Shown here piece after piece: positions 10,434 through 60,284 of a stretch of DNA of 61,328 nucleotides (position 1 is the stretch's first letter; each line of letters opens with the position of its first letter). The stretch comes from Cenarchaeum sp. SB0675_bin_21 (GTDB lineage Archaea; Thermoproteota; Nitrososphaeria; Nitrososphaerales; Nitrosopumilaceae): NCBI GenBank assembly GCA_009843815.1, contig VYCS01000010.1, positions 1 to 61,328 of the forward strand. Direction: 5' to 3'. The notes below the pieces were generated by a model that was not told where the DNA came from, did not search any database, and was given only the letters and a program-made list of their open reading frames with translations. The position numbers and the translations under genes are program-made.

Positions 10434-10964
10434 ATGGATCGAATTGATAAGATAGAGGTTATACCATCAAAGTCATCATATTCACTTGATGACACAATAC
10501 ATTTGCTGGTAAAGTTTTCTGTACAAGGCAAGAACCGGGAGTCATTCACCGAACAGAACTGGACTGAGGCGTACAATGCCAACGATGTATCCGTCAAGAT
10601 GAAGTATGAGGTTCATATAACCTCTACAGGGTTGAGGCGCCAAAAACTGGGCAAACCCATCATATCATACAAGAAGGCAGCAATATTTTGGACCAGAAAC
10701 CCAAAACTAGTAAATCCCATGAAGGAGAAGCGGGTCTGGGTGCAGGTTGCAAAGAATTTTACGCCCATCATAAAACTGACTGAAGAAGATGTACGCCAAG
10801 AGCTGTTCGACTTTGAGGAGGACTATACCATCAAAGCATCAGAGCTGGGTAAGGGTACACACAAAGTAAGAGGCAACGTGCAAGTGTCATGGCAGAAACA
10901 TCATTTCTTAGACAAGAACGATGTACATGGTGATATTCTACCTGTAGATATACAGGTAGACTAA
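10434..10964 (+). CDS. conserved-looking beta-rich protein, unknown function
   Basis: This 176-aa soluble protein has no signal peptide and alternates hydrophobic and polar residues, suggesting a beta sandwich (DKIEVIPSKSSYSLDDTIHLLVKFSV; THKVRGNVQVSWQKHHF). The pattern is loosely like arrestin or immunoglobulin-type folds, but I do not recognise a family. The ATG at 10434 lies about 30 nt from the TATA-like GGATATAAATC. The stop codon TAA (10962-10964) forms the last three bases of the 8-bp repeat flanking the tnpB element, so the gene survived the insertion intact. Confidence 0.65.
   Translation: MDRIDKIEVIPSKSSYSLDDTIHLLVKFSVQGKNRESFTEQNWTEAYNANDVSVKMKYEVHITSTGLRRQKLGKPIISYKKAAIFWTRNPKLVNPMKEKRVWVQVAKNFTPIIKLTEEDVRQELFDFEEDYTIKASELGKGTHKVRGNVQVSWQKHHFLDKNDVHGDILPVDIQVD
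10957..10964. repeat. 8-bp target duplication, left copy (TAGACTAA)
   Basis: TAGACTAA directly precedes the left terminal repeat of the tnpB element. An identical copy follows the right repeat at 12450-12457. The last three bases are the stop codon of the upstream gene. Confidence 0.8.
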
Positions 10965-11077
10965 TGGGCTGGTAACTAAACGTCGCGTAGGTTACCGGCC
11001 TGCCGTATGGCAGATGTTGGCGGCAAACCGCCATTCAGAGGAGTTACATTGAGACGTTCTTTGTTGGCTGGACTTTG
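10965..11077 (+). repeat. left terminal inverted repeat with three internal hairpins
   Basis: Three nested dyads are visible: GTAAC…GTTAC, CTGCC-gtat-GGCAG and TGGCGG-caa-ACCGCCA. The third hairpin is preserved in the right copy by paired changes (TGGTGG…CCACCA), as if base pairing is selected. Confidence 0.8.
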
Positions 11078-11130
11078 TACAACCTTTGGATAGGAACACC
11101 GCTTAAATATCACCGAATCATGTGTAATAC

Positions 11131-12438
11131 ATGAAGTACAAAGGTGAAAAGTACATCATTAGGACTCTGCAGTACCGTTTAAAGACATCAACCAAACTAA
11201 CACAATACTTTGACTCCATGTATTCTGAATCGCACATGTGGCTCAATGCCGGAATTGAGGCGCGTCGGGCCGGCCTGTCGGTATTTGATACCAATAAAGT
11301 AGCCACCATATGCCAGACAATCCCCCAAGCTTGGGTTCGTGGCGCAATACAAGAAGGCTATAAGATGGAGGGTTGTGCACATGTAAAGTACGGGCGTAAG
11401 ATATATCCACTATACAGCGCGGTTCCATTGGGCAAAAAGTCCAAGGGTAATACTGTATACTTCCCAAAGTGCGACAAACCCTTCAAACTGCAAAAGGACA
11501 CGCTTCCAAAATCCTCACAGTCCTACAAGATTGTGGATGTTACAAATCACGATGATAAAGAGAGGCAGTTCGAGTTGCACGTAACTATTCGTGAGCACGT
11601 CCCGGACCGTGTATGTACCGGCATACACGCGGGTATTGACATGGGCGGCAAGCACACGCTTATAGTTGGAAAGTCGGATGGGGGTATTGCGATGCTGACA
11701 CTTCGTGAAAAAGATACCATGCGGAACATCGCGCGAATACAAAAGAAGATGGCGCGGTGCAAGCTTCATTCTCACAAGTGGCGCAACCTGCATGCGCAGC
11801 TGCAATCGGTCTACAAGAAGATGGGAAATAAACAGATGGATGATCTGCGCAAGTTCTCCAAAAAACTGATGCTGCAGTGCGATAAAATCATCATGGAGGG
11901 CATGAACCTTCGTACAATGACTACAAAAGGGAAGGGTCAGAAAGCCAAGAATAAATTGATGCGACAAAGCAAGTGTGGTGAGGCGCGGAACTTGCTTGCG
12001 CAACAATCACTCAAGTATAATACAGAGTATGCCGAGATAGACCAGAAAGGCACCTCACAGCAGTGCTGTGTATGCGGCAACACAAACACATGGCGCAAAA
12101 GCAGCCAGTTTCGGTGTTATGATTGCGGTGTTCTGATGCACGTGGATGTCAACGCGGCATTCAACATATTATTCACTTTTTACACAGTGCAGTGGTCTAA
12201 GCGTGCGCAAGCCGTTTACGCGCTGCAAGACAAGGCCGGAATGGTCTTGAGAGGGAAGATACATCTTGGCACTTGCATGCCTCCTCCAAGTGTTAACGAC
12301 GTGATGGCCGGTACAGGCTGTCCAAAGGTCGGGCGTCAAAGTCCAGCCAACAAAGAACGTCTCAATGTAGCTCCTCTGGATGGTGGTCCGCCACCAACAT
12401 CTGCCGCACGGCAGGCCGGTAACCTACGCGACGTTTAG
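11131..12438 (+). CDS. tnpB: TnpB-family RuvC nuclease, catalytically intact
   Basis: This 435-aa TnpB (IS605 OrfB/IS1341-type) protein is an RNA-guided DNA endonuclease in characterised relatives. The RuvC triad is complete: Asp170 in GIDMGGKH, Glu256 in IIMEGMNL and Asp339 in HVDVNAAFNI. The zinc ribbon CCVCGNTNTW…CYDCG lies between the last two parts. The N terminus (YRLKTSTKLTQYFDSMYSESHMWLNAGIEARR) is the usual helical wedge region. The ATG at 11131 follows GCTTAAATATC (about 11101-11111) by 20-25 nt. The last ~35 codons lie inside the right terminal repeat, where TnpB guide RNAs normally overlap the gene end. The C-terminal tail is longer than usual after the zinc ribbon. Confidence 0.9.
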   Translation: MKYKGEKYIIRTLQYRLKTSTKLTQYFDSMYSESHMWLNAGIEARRAGLSVFDTNKVATICQTIPQAWVRGAIQEGYKMEGCAHVKYGRKIYPLYSAVPLGKKSKGNTVYFPKCDKPFKLQKDTLPKSSQSYKIVDVTNHDDKERQFELHVTIREHVPDRVCTGIHAGIDMGGKHTLIVGKSDGGIAMLTLREKDTMRNIARIQKKMARCKLHSHKWRNLHAQLQSVYKKMGNKQMDDLRKFSKKLMLQCDKIIMEGMNLRTMTTKGKGQKAKNKLMRQSKCGEARNLLAQQSLKYNTEYAEIDQKGTSQQCCVCGNTNTWRKSSQFRCYDCGVLMHVDVNAAFNILFTFYTVQWSKRAQAVYALQDKAGMVLRGKIHLGTCMPPPSVNDVMAGTGCPKVGRQSPANKERLNVAPLDGGPPPTSAARQAGNLRDV

Positions 12439-12449
12439 TTACCAGCTCA
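12337..12449 (-). repeat. right terminal inverted repeat, overlapping the tnpB 3' end
   Basis: This is the reverse complement of 10965-11077 at about 92% identity. It encodes the tnpB C terminus and its stop at 12438. It contains the same hairpins, and is the likeliest place for the scaffold of a TnpB guide RNA whose guide would read into the flank after 12449. Confidence 0.8.
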
Positions 12450-12457
12450 TAGACTAA
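12450..12457. repeat. 8-bp target duplication, right copy (TAGACTAA)
   Basis: Identical to 10957-10964 and immediately adjacent to the right terminal repeat. Confidence 0.8.
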
Positions 12458-13467: not shown

Positions 13468-14112
13468 TTATTCTAAGACTGCCACTGCTCGAACTGGCGA
13501 AGCTGTACTGTCTAATATTTTGAGGGGCAAAATAATATAGTTAAATTGCACACCTGGTATCTTGTCGAGATGGGCAAGATTTTCCACATTTATCGTACCT
13601 GCACGAGCCAATATGTGGTGCGCAGGAAATGTAGCATCCAATCCAGCATCAATGCTAGGCGAGTCCATCCCCACCAGTGAGACTGATATGGATGCCAAAT
13701 ATTCGGCCGCGTCCTTTGAAAGACCTGGATTCTCAGAAAAGTAATTGTCATCATTGATGTGCGTCTGCCACCCGGTCCGAAATATTACCGGCGAACCGTG
13801 CGGAATTGTACAGTTTTCCTTCTGCCACCGTATAATATCGTCTCTTTGAATATACCCGTTGGCATCTTTATGTATATGAAGCAGTGTGGCTCTACCAACC
13901 AATACATTCAGGGGGATTTGGTGTATGCGTAGACCATCTTGTCTAAAGTGATATGGTGCGTCCATATGAGTTCCCAAATGTGAACTTAGAAACAACATCT
14001 CAGAGTTGTATCCCTCCCCTTTTATGGTGCTCCATGGTATCGTGTGCATTGATGGCGAGCCTGGGAACACAGGCAGTGTATCGGACATCTCCAATGTCAA
14101 ATCCAATAACAT
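13468..14112 (-). CDS. cyclase/kynurenine-formamidase-like metal hydrolase
   Basis: A 214-aa member of the putative cyclase family (kynurenine formamidase KynB and relatives). The metal motif SHLGTHMDAP is at residues 44-53, with His45, His49 and Asp51 as ligands. LVGRATLLHI near 79 and the late TFPAHHILA segment are also typical. In other organisms the family hydrolyses formylkynurenine, cyclic imides or isatin. No tryptophan-catabolism genes are nearby, so the substrate is open. It is 32 bp upstream of the phosphatase in the same direction. Confidence 0.8.
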   Translation of the reverse strand: MLLDLTLEMSDTLPVFPGSPSMHTIPWSTIKGEGYNSEMLFLSSHLGTHMDAPYHFRQDGLRIHQIPLNVLVGRATLLHIHKDANGYIQRDDIIRWQKENCTIPHGSPVIFRTGWQTHINDDNYFSENPGLSKDAAEYLASISVSLVGMDSPSIDAGLDATFPAHHILARAGTINVENLAHLDKIPGVQFNYIILPLKILDSTASPVRAVAVLE

Positions 14113-35942: not shown

Positions 35943-37364
35943 GGGAATTATATACCTGGGTATGCACGCGTAACATACGCGTACATTCCTAGGTGCTTCA
36001 TGGCGCTTGATGTTTTGGGTCGATTGCACGCTTGATTCTCACGCCGCCGTCTGGCGTCCGGAACTGCACAAACAGGTGGCTTCCGGGTCCGGCCCATTTC
36101 ACGCCTTTCGAGGGCTATTCCTTCCCCCGCGGGAACCTCTCGTCTGGTTCCCCGTTGTATGATGTTTACCGACGCATTGCCGTCGGCGTTTGCCACGTGG
36201 TTACATCTGAGACACTTGAACATCTCCCCATTTCGGTTCTCCTTGGATATGTAGCCGCACACACTGCACTCCTGGCTCGTGTGTTTTGGACTTACCTCTA
36301 CTACACGGATGACCAACCGCTCTGCGATGATGTGGATCTTTCGCAGTATTGCATAATGCCGAATAAACATCATTCCCCTGTTCAGACCCTTCTTGTGCCT
36401 GCCACCGCGCCTGCTCATGGCCTCAAGGTTGAGCTGCTCGACATATATTACATCCACGCCCTCGCATATCTTCTTGGCCAATAACCACTCTGCATACTCG
36501 CGGTCGTTCGCATTACCACGATTGTACTTTTCTCGCTTGCGTTTAATTTTACACGTCGAGTTGGAGTGTTTATTGCGGTGTGATATAGTACGGCGCGTCT
36601 CATCATTCCATGTACGGTTCGTGCGGAATGCGGTTGCGGTATCGTATGATGTTATATTTGAGGTGTTATGGTCTGTCTTGCACACGACGGTCGGATTTGA
36701 TACCCCTCGATCTATGCCGACAACAACACCGGTCTTGGCGCGCCGTTCGGGTACCGGTACGTCATATGTTATGTGCAGCCGGTAGATATGGTCACATGAC
36801 TTGACGTGCCCCCACGACTTTGGTGTAACCTGCACCAAATGGAAAGACCTTGAGCCATACAGCCAGTTGTGTGGAAATTGATATGGCTGCTCCTCAGGCA
36901 ACTCAACAACACCAAGGCCCGGCAATGACGCGTGCCTGTTGTCCACAAATCGCGGCTGTACATCACATGATACTGCCTTTGTATTATCGCGCTTTCTGGC
37001 GCGGAAACTCAGCTCGCCGTTGCCGTATTTGTTCGAGACATCCGCAGCAGTGCGGGCCTGATGGATGGCCGTATTTTGGTATATGCGCTCTACTGTTTGC
37101 AGTCACTGCACGGAACGCCTCACCTTGGTGAACTCTCTGGAGAGGTCATATGTAGTAAGTGTGGGGTTAGTAAGCAGCCGCTCCACGGCCCAGTTGTACA
37201 CGAACCGTTGTGAGTCCCGTATTTTGGATATGTAACGCGCCTGAGAGCGCGTCAGGTTTACGCGGAAGCCATAAGACCGATACATGTAGTCTTATACACC
37301 ATAATACTTTATAAACATGTACCCATTACAGGACTTGCCTTGCCTACCCAAGTCTATAATTCCC
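35943..37364 (-). mobile_element. 1422-bp tnpB element with short TIRs and 8-bp flanking repeats
   Basis: Both ends carry an inverted repeat of about 24 bp: GGGAATTATATACCTGGGTA inward from 35943 and GGGAATTATAGACTTGGGTA inward (reverse strand) from 37364. It contains one tnpB gene with a stop codon in it and no transposase. The 3' end of tnpB is followed by a strong stem (35957-35996, arms ACCTGGGTATGCACGCGTA and TACGCGTACATTCCTAGGT) just inside the end. As with the first tnpB unit, repeat and duplication do not fit IS200/IS605 transposition. Confidence 0.75.
35948..37285 (-). pseudogene. tnpB: tnpB with a single in-frame stop codon
   Basis: From ATG 37285 to the stop at 35948 one frame encodes a 445-codon TnpB, broken only by TGA at 37105-37103 (codon 61; sense …RRSVQ, stop, LQTVER…). 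A Trp codon TGG is the likely ancestor, since W-L is common there. Downstream, RuvC motifs are intact: VVGIDRGVSN, IYVEQLNLEAM, ADGNASVNI, with zinc ribbon CSVCGY…CLRCN. ATG at 36946 could start an N-truncated protein. TTTATAAAG precedes the ATG at 37285. Either a recent pseudogene or, less likely, readthrough. Confidence 0.85.
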
Positions 37365-47449: not shown

Positions 47450-47829
47450 GGGAATCATACACGAAAGTAGCGCAATATACTAAGTCACCTCTAAAAGGAA
47501 CCGATGACAACGCATGACACGGTCTACAAGGTAAGATTACAGCATAACATAAAACTATACGAGTGGACCGTCCGCACGAATCATACATTTTATGGTACGT
47601 TTACAACAACACTGTCTCATCATACCTACTTGGCGGGGAGATAACCAAATGCATAGTAGTGTCGTACAAACCAAAAAAGACTGGCAATATGTGGGGTGTT
47701 GGTGTTGGCGGCAGACACTTGGCAGCAACTACTGATCTCGAAAGATGCAACACCATACGCGCCACTATCAAAGGCTCTAGGAAAAGGCAAGATTAACACC
47801 AATTGGTGTCAACTTCGTATATAATTCCC
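47450..47829. mobile_element. 380-bp non-autonomous element, same end family as the 35943 tnpB unit
   Basis: Ends: GGGAATCATACACGAA (47450 inward) and, on the other strand, GGGAATTATATACGAA (47829 inward), flanked by TAAATTTA. The terminal 13 bases of the right end equal those of the tnpB element at 35943. A perfect ACACCAATTGGTGT palindrome lies near the right end (about 47798-47811). It contains short ORFs but no TnpB or transposase, so it must be moved in trans (inference). Confidence 0.8.
47563..47796 (+). CDS. doubtful 77-aa ORF inside the 380-bp element
   Basis: GTG-initiated frame whose second half (YKPKKTGNMWGVGVGGRHL, then DLERCNTIRATIKGSRKRQ) looks like a basic protein tail. Another frame from ATG 47504 encodes MTTHDTVYKVRLQHNIKLYEW and stops at about 47644, so a frameshift between the two may have split one ORF. 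Cargo or relic of a larger element; function unknown. Confidence 0.3.
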   Translation: MDRPHESYILWYVYNNTVSSYLLGGEITKCIVVSYKPKKTGNMWGVGVGGRHLAATTDLERCNTIRATIKGSRKRQD

Positions 47830-59846: not shown

Positions 59847-60284
59847 GGTTCCTCCCGCAAAGTTAGGTGATGGTTGATATATTGTTAGATAATGTTAAAT
59901 ACGTCATTGAACCGTACTATCTGATGGCTCTTGTCAAAAATAGCAGGGCGATAACACGTCCATACACAAAAAATTTGGGCATACAATACGTGTTTGAACA
60001 TGTCAAGAAGGTGGCAGAAGTAGCATATATTATAGCAAATAACACGGGGAAGGATACCTATGGTGTTAACGCATTGATGTATCGTATAATGCGCGGTCCT
60101 GACCCAAAGTATATTCGTCCATAACGCAGACCGCCATACGGGACGGGGTTGTCGCGGCGAAGTCCGTCGTGATGTGGATGTAATCCTCGATCCCACACCA
60201 CTCATACAGGGTTGCTGGAGCAACTTGGCTGACAGACTATCTCGTATGGCGGGGGTGTAATCACCCGACTTTGCGGGAGGAACC
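59847..60284. mobile_element. 438-bp TIR element with perfect 8-bp target duplication
   Basis: Left end GGTTCCTCCCGCAAAGT (59847 on) is the exact inverse of the right end (ACTTTGCGGGAGGAACC to 60284); similarity extends to about 26 bp (…GGTGAT). Flanks are CCGCTACT on both sides. It contains one 84-aa ORF and no transposase. The right half includes GGGTG-taat-CACCC just inside the repeat. Related right ends lie at 160 and 41660. Confidence 0.85.
59870..60124 (+). CDS. 84-aa ORF carried by the 438-bp element
   Basis: ATG at 59870, just inside the left repeat, to TAA at 60124. The peptide (MVDILLDNVKYVIEPYYLMALVKNSR…) is mixed alpha/beta with a tail RIMRGPDPKYIRP. Downstream another frame (HNADRHTGRGCRGEVRRD, then PLIQGCWSNLADRLSRMAG) is also protein-like up to about 60260, so the ORF may be a frameshifted piece of a longer cargo or an ancient transposase remnant. 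Not recognised. Confidence 0.4.
   Translation: MVDILLDNVKYVIEPYYLMALVKNSRAITRPYTKNLGIQYVFEHVKKVAEVAYIIANNTGKDTYGVNALMYRIMRGPDPKYIRP

Follow-up and report, generated by a model that had tools for sequence, protein, structure and literature searches.

The window analysed here is a 61,328-nucleotide contig of a Cenarchaeum-like sponge archaeon, whose genome (G000) comprises 1.61 Mb in 48 contigs. Between positions 10957 and 12457 it carries a tnpB gene enclosed by terminal inverted repeats (TIRs), with an 8-bp target site duplication (TSD) on the outside (Table 1). An initial annotation had described repeats of 113 bp with nine differences, and a recount gave exactly nine mismatches; a separate repeat search recovered the same pair as 114 nt at 92%. 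The identical 8-bp flanks reported there are borne out as well, TAGACTAA bordering the unit exactly on both sides, and the whole window contains a 20-base TIR core just twice, at the two element ends, against a chance expectation of 0. To the right of position 12449 the sequence begins TAGACTAAGATG... According to the list of open reading frames (ORFs), tnpB is the sole gene inside the unit and no second gene is present there, serine recombinases not having been searched genome-wide.

The protein, read by the same annotation as a lone TnpB with Asp170, Glu256, Asp339 and a zinc ribbon, matches the NCBIfam profile guided_TnpB (E-value 8.8e-30) and the Pfam domains TNB and OrfB_IS605. D170, E256, D339 and most of the zinc-ribbon cysteines are conserved within its family (family A, see below); the RuvC D-E-D triad and the TNB zinc ribbon by which RNA-guided TnpB nucleases are recognised are both present. 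The ratio of nonsynonymous to synonymous substitution rates (dN/dS) lies at about 0.1-0.3 for nearly all pairs of intact ORFs in families A, B and C, and at 0.41 in family D, where a single pair was available. TnpB is therefore under purifying selection, with dN/dS mostly between 0.1 and 0.3.

At least 26 longer tnpB loci are present in the genome and have been sorted into four families, A to D. Different types of TIR are found in family A (TGGGCTGGTAACTAAACG, TGGGCTGTGACGTTATC or GGAACTGTCAAAAAGTAGG), B (GGGAATTATATACAAAAGTA), C (GGGAATTATATACCTGGGTA) and D (GGTTCCTCCCGCAAGG). In a mechanical test demanding a TIR of at least 16/24 whose outer bases match and an 8-bp TSD of at least 7/8, both bracketing the gene, 15 of the 26 loci passed, 11 of them with an exact TSD. 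The same scan passed none of 79 tnpB loci from other genomes, a control which probes 8-bp TSDs only and in which some genes are truncated. Close copies of the window unit were found on other contigs with TSDs of their own (CTTGCGCA, GTTCAGAG, CTTAGTCA/CTTGGTCA). The initial annotation had proposed looking for copies with the same ends and a DDE transposase; no transposase with TGGGCTGGTAAC ends was found. One further family C copy has an exact TSD, AACGCTGT, and a weaker TIR, and three C copies with exact TSDs (GTTCTGGA, GAGATTCA, GGCCGCTG) are present in the congener G246.

Empty sites were sought in another congener, G245. For a miniature inverted-repeat transposable element (MITE) of the window, at 47450-47829, G245 has a clean empty site with a single TAAATTTA. 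At the site of the window tnpB, the flanking genes of G245 are homologous and the element is absent, the intergenic DNA being too diverged and unalignable to judge whether a single TAGACTAA remains; other tnpB sites are likewise unoccupied, their intergenic DNA having diverged too. The insertions are thus real: multiple independent events have taken place, and the elements are absent at orthologous sites. Family A itself is confined to this genus among the 250 genomes of the taxonomic family that were searched, and no relatives of it were found on viral contigs. A named close relative is Cenarchaeum sp. SB0662_bin_33 (81% identity).

Table 1. Coordinates of the tnpB unit, its parts and related elements within the window
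Feature	Position	Strand	Basis
Left TSD, TAGACTAA	10957..10964	.	sequence comparison
Left TIR, 113 bp, outer end TGGGCTGGTAACTAAACG	10965..11077	+	repeat search
tnpB, 435 aa, family A, RuvC D170/E256/D339 and zinc ribbon; frame enters right TIR	11131..12438	+	
Right TIR, 113 bp; overlaps tnpB 3' end and putative omega-RNA	12337..12449	+	
Putative omega-RNA scaffold hairpins, compensatory changes over 11 family A right ends	12370..12416	+	
Subterminal palindrome GGTAAC...GTTACC in right TIR, 6 bases from element end	12418..12443	+	sequence inspection
Right TSD, TAGACTAA; would form the first guide bases if the omega-RNA stops at the element end	12450..12457	.	
Family C tnpB element, GGGAATTATA-type TIRs, TSD ATGAACAA/ATAAACAA (7/8)	35943..37364	-	
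tnpB-less MITE, GGGAATYATA TIRs, exact TSD TAAATTTA	47450..47829	.	
tnpB-less MITE, GGTTCCTCCCGCAA TIRs (outer end as in family D tnpB elements), exact TSD CCGCTACT	59847..60284	.	

The proposed link to IS1595 transposons

The TIR of families B and C, GGGAATTATATA..., also terminates DDE transposons of the IS1595 family in congeners. Matches to the TIR motif number 71 in the window genome, against 2 for a reversed-pattern control, and 25 against 0 in the congeners. When the B/C pattern was followed in G245 and G246, it led to a truncated transposase gene (P0002/L255) whose start lies about 50 bp in from a GGGAATTATATGGATGGGTA end. This transposase belongs to the IS1595 family (NF033547, E-value 1.8e-20; Pfam DDE_Tnp_IS1595), its NF033547 score falling slightly below the curated cut-off because the gene is truncated. 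A search of 250 genomes for this transposase yielded more copies, most of the intact ones with a GGGAATTATA-type or GGGATTATATAC end immediately upstream, and the IS1595 end at L298, GGGATTATATACAAAAGTA, corresponds to the GGGAATTATATACAAAAGTA of family B.

A complete element of 2694 bp was found in G245 (L293:2740-5433), with perfect 30-bp TIRs (GGGAATTATAGGGAATAGTG...) and an exact TSD, AAACATAT. Its genes encode an IS1595 transposase with a full-length DDE_Tnp_IS1595 domain, an N6/N4 DNA methylase and an Eco47II-type restriction enzyme; the cargo is a mobile restriction-modification system, although the methylase frame may be interrupted at a homopolymer run. Known features of IS1595 elements are 8-bp duplications, TIRs of about 25 bp and the carriage of passengers (PMC5704250). 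The matching ends and the duplication length thus identify the ends of families B and C as IS1595 ends, and the tnpB units of these two families are firmly assigned to non-autonomous IS1595-type elements.

For family A, to which the window unit belongs, the same assignment would follow by extension. At the copy on contig C24, the family A right end is followed by a GGAAATTACATCTCTAAGTAAACA end (read inwards); the A2 gene, also on C24, is flanked by GGGAATTACATC and AGGAATTATATG ends; other family A relatives have GGRAATTAYAT-type ends. The TIR pattern of the C12 copy gave mostly chance matches in six relatives, together with one solo end in G245.

Overall, the unit at 10965-12449 is probably a non-autonomous IS1595-type DDE transposon with TnpB and its putative omega-RNA as passengers and with the transposase acting in trans. 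The separate transposase postulated in the initial annotation remains the best explanation, by way of the IS1595 ends and 8-bp TSDs of sister families B and C. The enzyme would be supplied by an autonomous IS1595-family element, would recognise the TIRs and would insert the tnpB unit with an 8-bp target duplication; the TGGGCTGGTAAC-type TIR of family A would be served by the same transposase family.

The right end and the putative omega-RNA

Eleven family A right ends, with differing types of TIR, have a common scaffold of two hairpins. Twelve compensatory cells were counted in these hairpins, a number inflated by the relatedness of the copies; none of 500 shuffles scored as high, and sliding controls drop off. 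The final 150 bases of family B, C and D elements likewise form strong folds, with a terminal hairpin adjoining the TIR. A search against Rfam gave no match above the gathering score. This anatomy is that of a putative omega-RNA, which would lie within the 3' part of tnpB and end in the right TIR, at the end of the element. The stop codon of the tnpB frame also falls inside the TIR in family A copies C12 and C3, in family B and in most C copies, so that TIR sequence (12337-12449 in the window) encodes the tail of the protein.

Since the putative omega-RNA would end in the right TIR, its guide would consist of the right-hand TSD and the adjoining host DNA, and would direct TnpB to the uninserted allele of that site, which it may then cleave. 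The base preceding the TSD is G in 7 of 8 family B copies, family C showing no such bias, and might be a faint trace of a target-adjacent motif (TAM).

Such recutting of empty sites might help to retain the element, as the initial annotation suggested. One alternative retains the mobility proposed above, being a matter of function and compatible with that part of the explanation, and assigns TnpB a role other than recutting, such as the exclusion of rival elements or guide-programmed regulation. TnpB-derived regulators exist. Moreover, IS1595 elements are believed to transpose replicatively (PMC5704250), the donor copy staying in place, so that not every jump need leave an empty donor site and recutting would mainly hit uninserted sister or incoming alleles instead of a donor scar. 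The intact RuvC triad under purifying selection nevertheless favours a nuclease, and structure in the right end extends as far as the element boundary; another role is possible but, on this evidence, rather unlikely.

Weighing the assignment to IS1595

Several observations weigh against the proposed IS1595-type transposon with TnpB and omega-RNA as passengers. The TGGGCTGGTAAC type of TIR, that of the window copy, was not found beside any transposase, and no close or cognate IS1595 transposase gene is present in the assembled window genome. The only IS1595 transposase there is a distant one (27% identity) on contig C37, with differing candidate ends. Eleven of the 26 tnpB loci fail the combined TIR and TSD test. 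The covarying stems lie within the coding frame of tnpB, and an AlphaFold model of the 435-aa protein reached a predicted local distance difference test (pLDDT) score of 49, a confidence too low for the model to be used. The transposase ORF on C37 (L053:8590-9830, 339 aa) lies about 1 kb from a family A tnpB; it was rejected as the mobiliser, its candidate inverted repeats (TCGCTCATC...) being different and no TSD being seen.

A DDE family other than IS1595 might lie behind the TGGGCTG and GGAACTG ends of family A and the GGTTCC ends of family D, in which case several unrelated transposases producing 8-bp TSDs would carry TnpB. Close tnpB relatives do differ in TIR type, and no IS1595 transposase was found with any of these three ends. 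The TSD length is uniform, however, and family A relatives with GGRAATTAYAT ends exist. IS256 (Mutator) transposases are ruled out as mobilisers by the absence of PF00872 from G000, G245 and G246, a search that did not extend to IS1, ISL3 and IS66, which also produce 8-bp TSDs. Another DDE family is, on balance, rather unlikely.

It is improbable, in turn, that TnpB has been domesticated, with its copies fixed as host genes, the TIRs as fossils and no present mobility. Purifying selection would suit such a history, as would the decay of some copies, such as the family C tnpB at 35943-37364, whose longest ORF from ATG is 156 aa; but close copies occupy different sites with separate TSDs (synonymous divergence in family B goes down to 0.1), contig ends fall in B-type TIRs, and the elements are absent at orthologous sites of G245.

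Finally, an IS200/IS605 or IS607 tnpB element that has lost its own transposase, and whose inverted repeats are chance matches or ordinary hairpins, is very improbable and largely refuted by the recurrent TSDs: TnpB is an IS605-like protein and tnpB-only elements are common in archaea, but IS200/IS605 and IS607 have neither long TIRs nor a TSD, and no Y1 transposase (PF01797) was matched in G000, G245 or G246, the control profile being positive in five known genomes. The view of the initial annotation that the unit is unlike IS200/IS605 is upheld by these findings.

Known systems and smaller elements

Cas12 and the eukaryotic Fanzors both descend from TnpB. In prokaryotes, TnpB has been described as belonging to IS200/IS605 and IS607 (PMC3627910, PMC10711439), and no case of TnpB in IS1595 elements was met in the literature searched, subscription papers lying outside it. 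It is somewhat more likely than not that in the Cenarchaeum lineage the whole TnpB complement has left IS200/IS605 and IS607 for DDE elements of IS1595 type, with the omega-RNA fused to the right end and the guide starting with the 8-bp TSD. This would be an independent prokaryotic parallel of Fanzor1, in which a transposase and a nuclease from separate elements cooperate. A prokaryotic TnpB carried by DDE elements shows a portable module, tied neither to single-strand nor to serine-recombinase transposition, and offers a comparison for the entry of Fanzors into cut-and-paste transposons. Furthermore, TnpB function with target-duplicating insertion becomes testable, as the guide would open with the TSD, placing the TAM on its 5' side.

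The nearest parallels are the Fanzor1-only and Fanzor2 elements of eukaryotes, among them non-autonomous Mariner elements such as PUl-4 (PMC3627910) and the Fanzor2* of cut-and-paste transposons (PMC10711439). In both Fanzor1 and Fanzor2*, as in families B and C here, a lone TnpB homologue sits between TIRs that are identical in an autonomous DDE family, with the TSD of that family, and the guide RNA (here putative) ends at the TIR. Their hosts, however, are eukaryotes or eukaryotic viruses, whereas here a true archaeal TnpB occurs in four families within one genome, and the likely DDE family is IS1595. The IS1595 transporter elements tISCpe8 and MTnSag1 (PMC5704250) share IS1595-type TIRs of about 25-30 bp, an 8-bp TSD and a passenger gene, but have their own transposase and drug-resistance genes, while the window unit has no transposase and TnpB as passenger. 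IS200/IS605 and IS607 (PMC8612924) share the TnpB family protein, a structured RNA at the 3' end (here putative) and possibly a guide from the flank, and differ in their Y1 or serine enzymes as well as at their ends. MITEs, finally, also have TIRs and TSDs without a transposase, and the window contains examples that have the same ends and lack tnpB, but the unit at 10965-12449 carries a 1.3-kb gene that is intact and under selection.

In a tree of 52 proteins, families A, B and C group together (support 94/98, slightly below the strict mark) and D stands apart, deep support being weak and the branches long. The separate position of D makes at least two entries of tnpB into TIR elements likely, if not proven. 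Within family A, the copies on C12, C14, C3, C37 and C24 have closely related tnpB cores and differing TIR types, as if ends had been exchanged and then copied inverted to the opposite side; in C12 and C3 the long TIRs extend into the scaffold.

Abundant transposases have been reported from some sponge-associated Thaumarchaeota (PMC7848895). In the window genome, the first 55 or so bases of contigs C20, C31 and C38 lie within a family B type TIR, which points to recent, near-identical copies at which the assembly broke. A 4.3-kb TIR candidate on C33, with a sensor-like protein and only about 12 consecutive end bases in common, was treated as chance. Another MITE (L058:1993-2454) has GGTTCCTCCCGCAA ends, which are family D outer ends, and an exact 8-bp TSD. 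On contig C23 (L061, about 13824-13875), a 38-bp micro-element, TGAGTTGGTAACCTACGCGACGTTTAGTTACCAGCCCA, has CCATCTAA on either side; it is essentially a single palindromic family A transposon end inserted with an 8-bp duplication.
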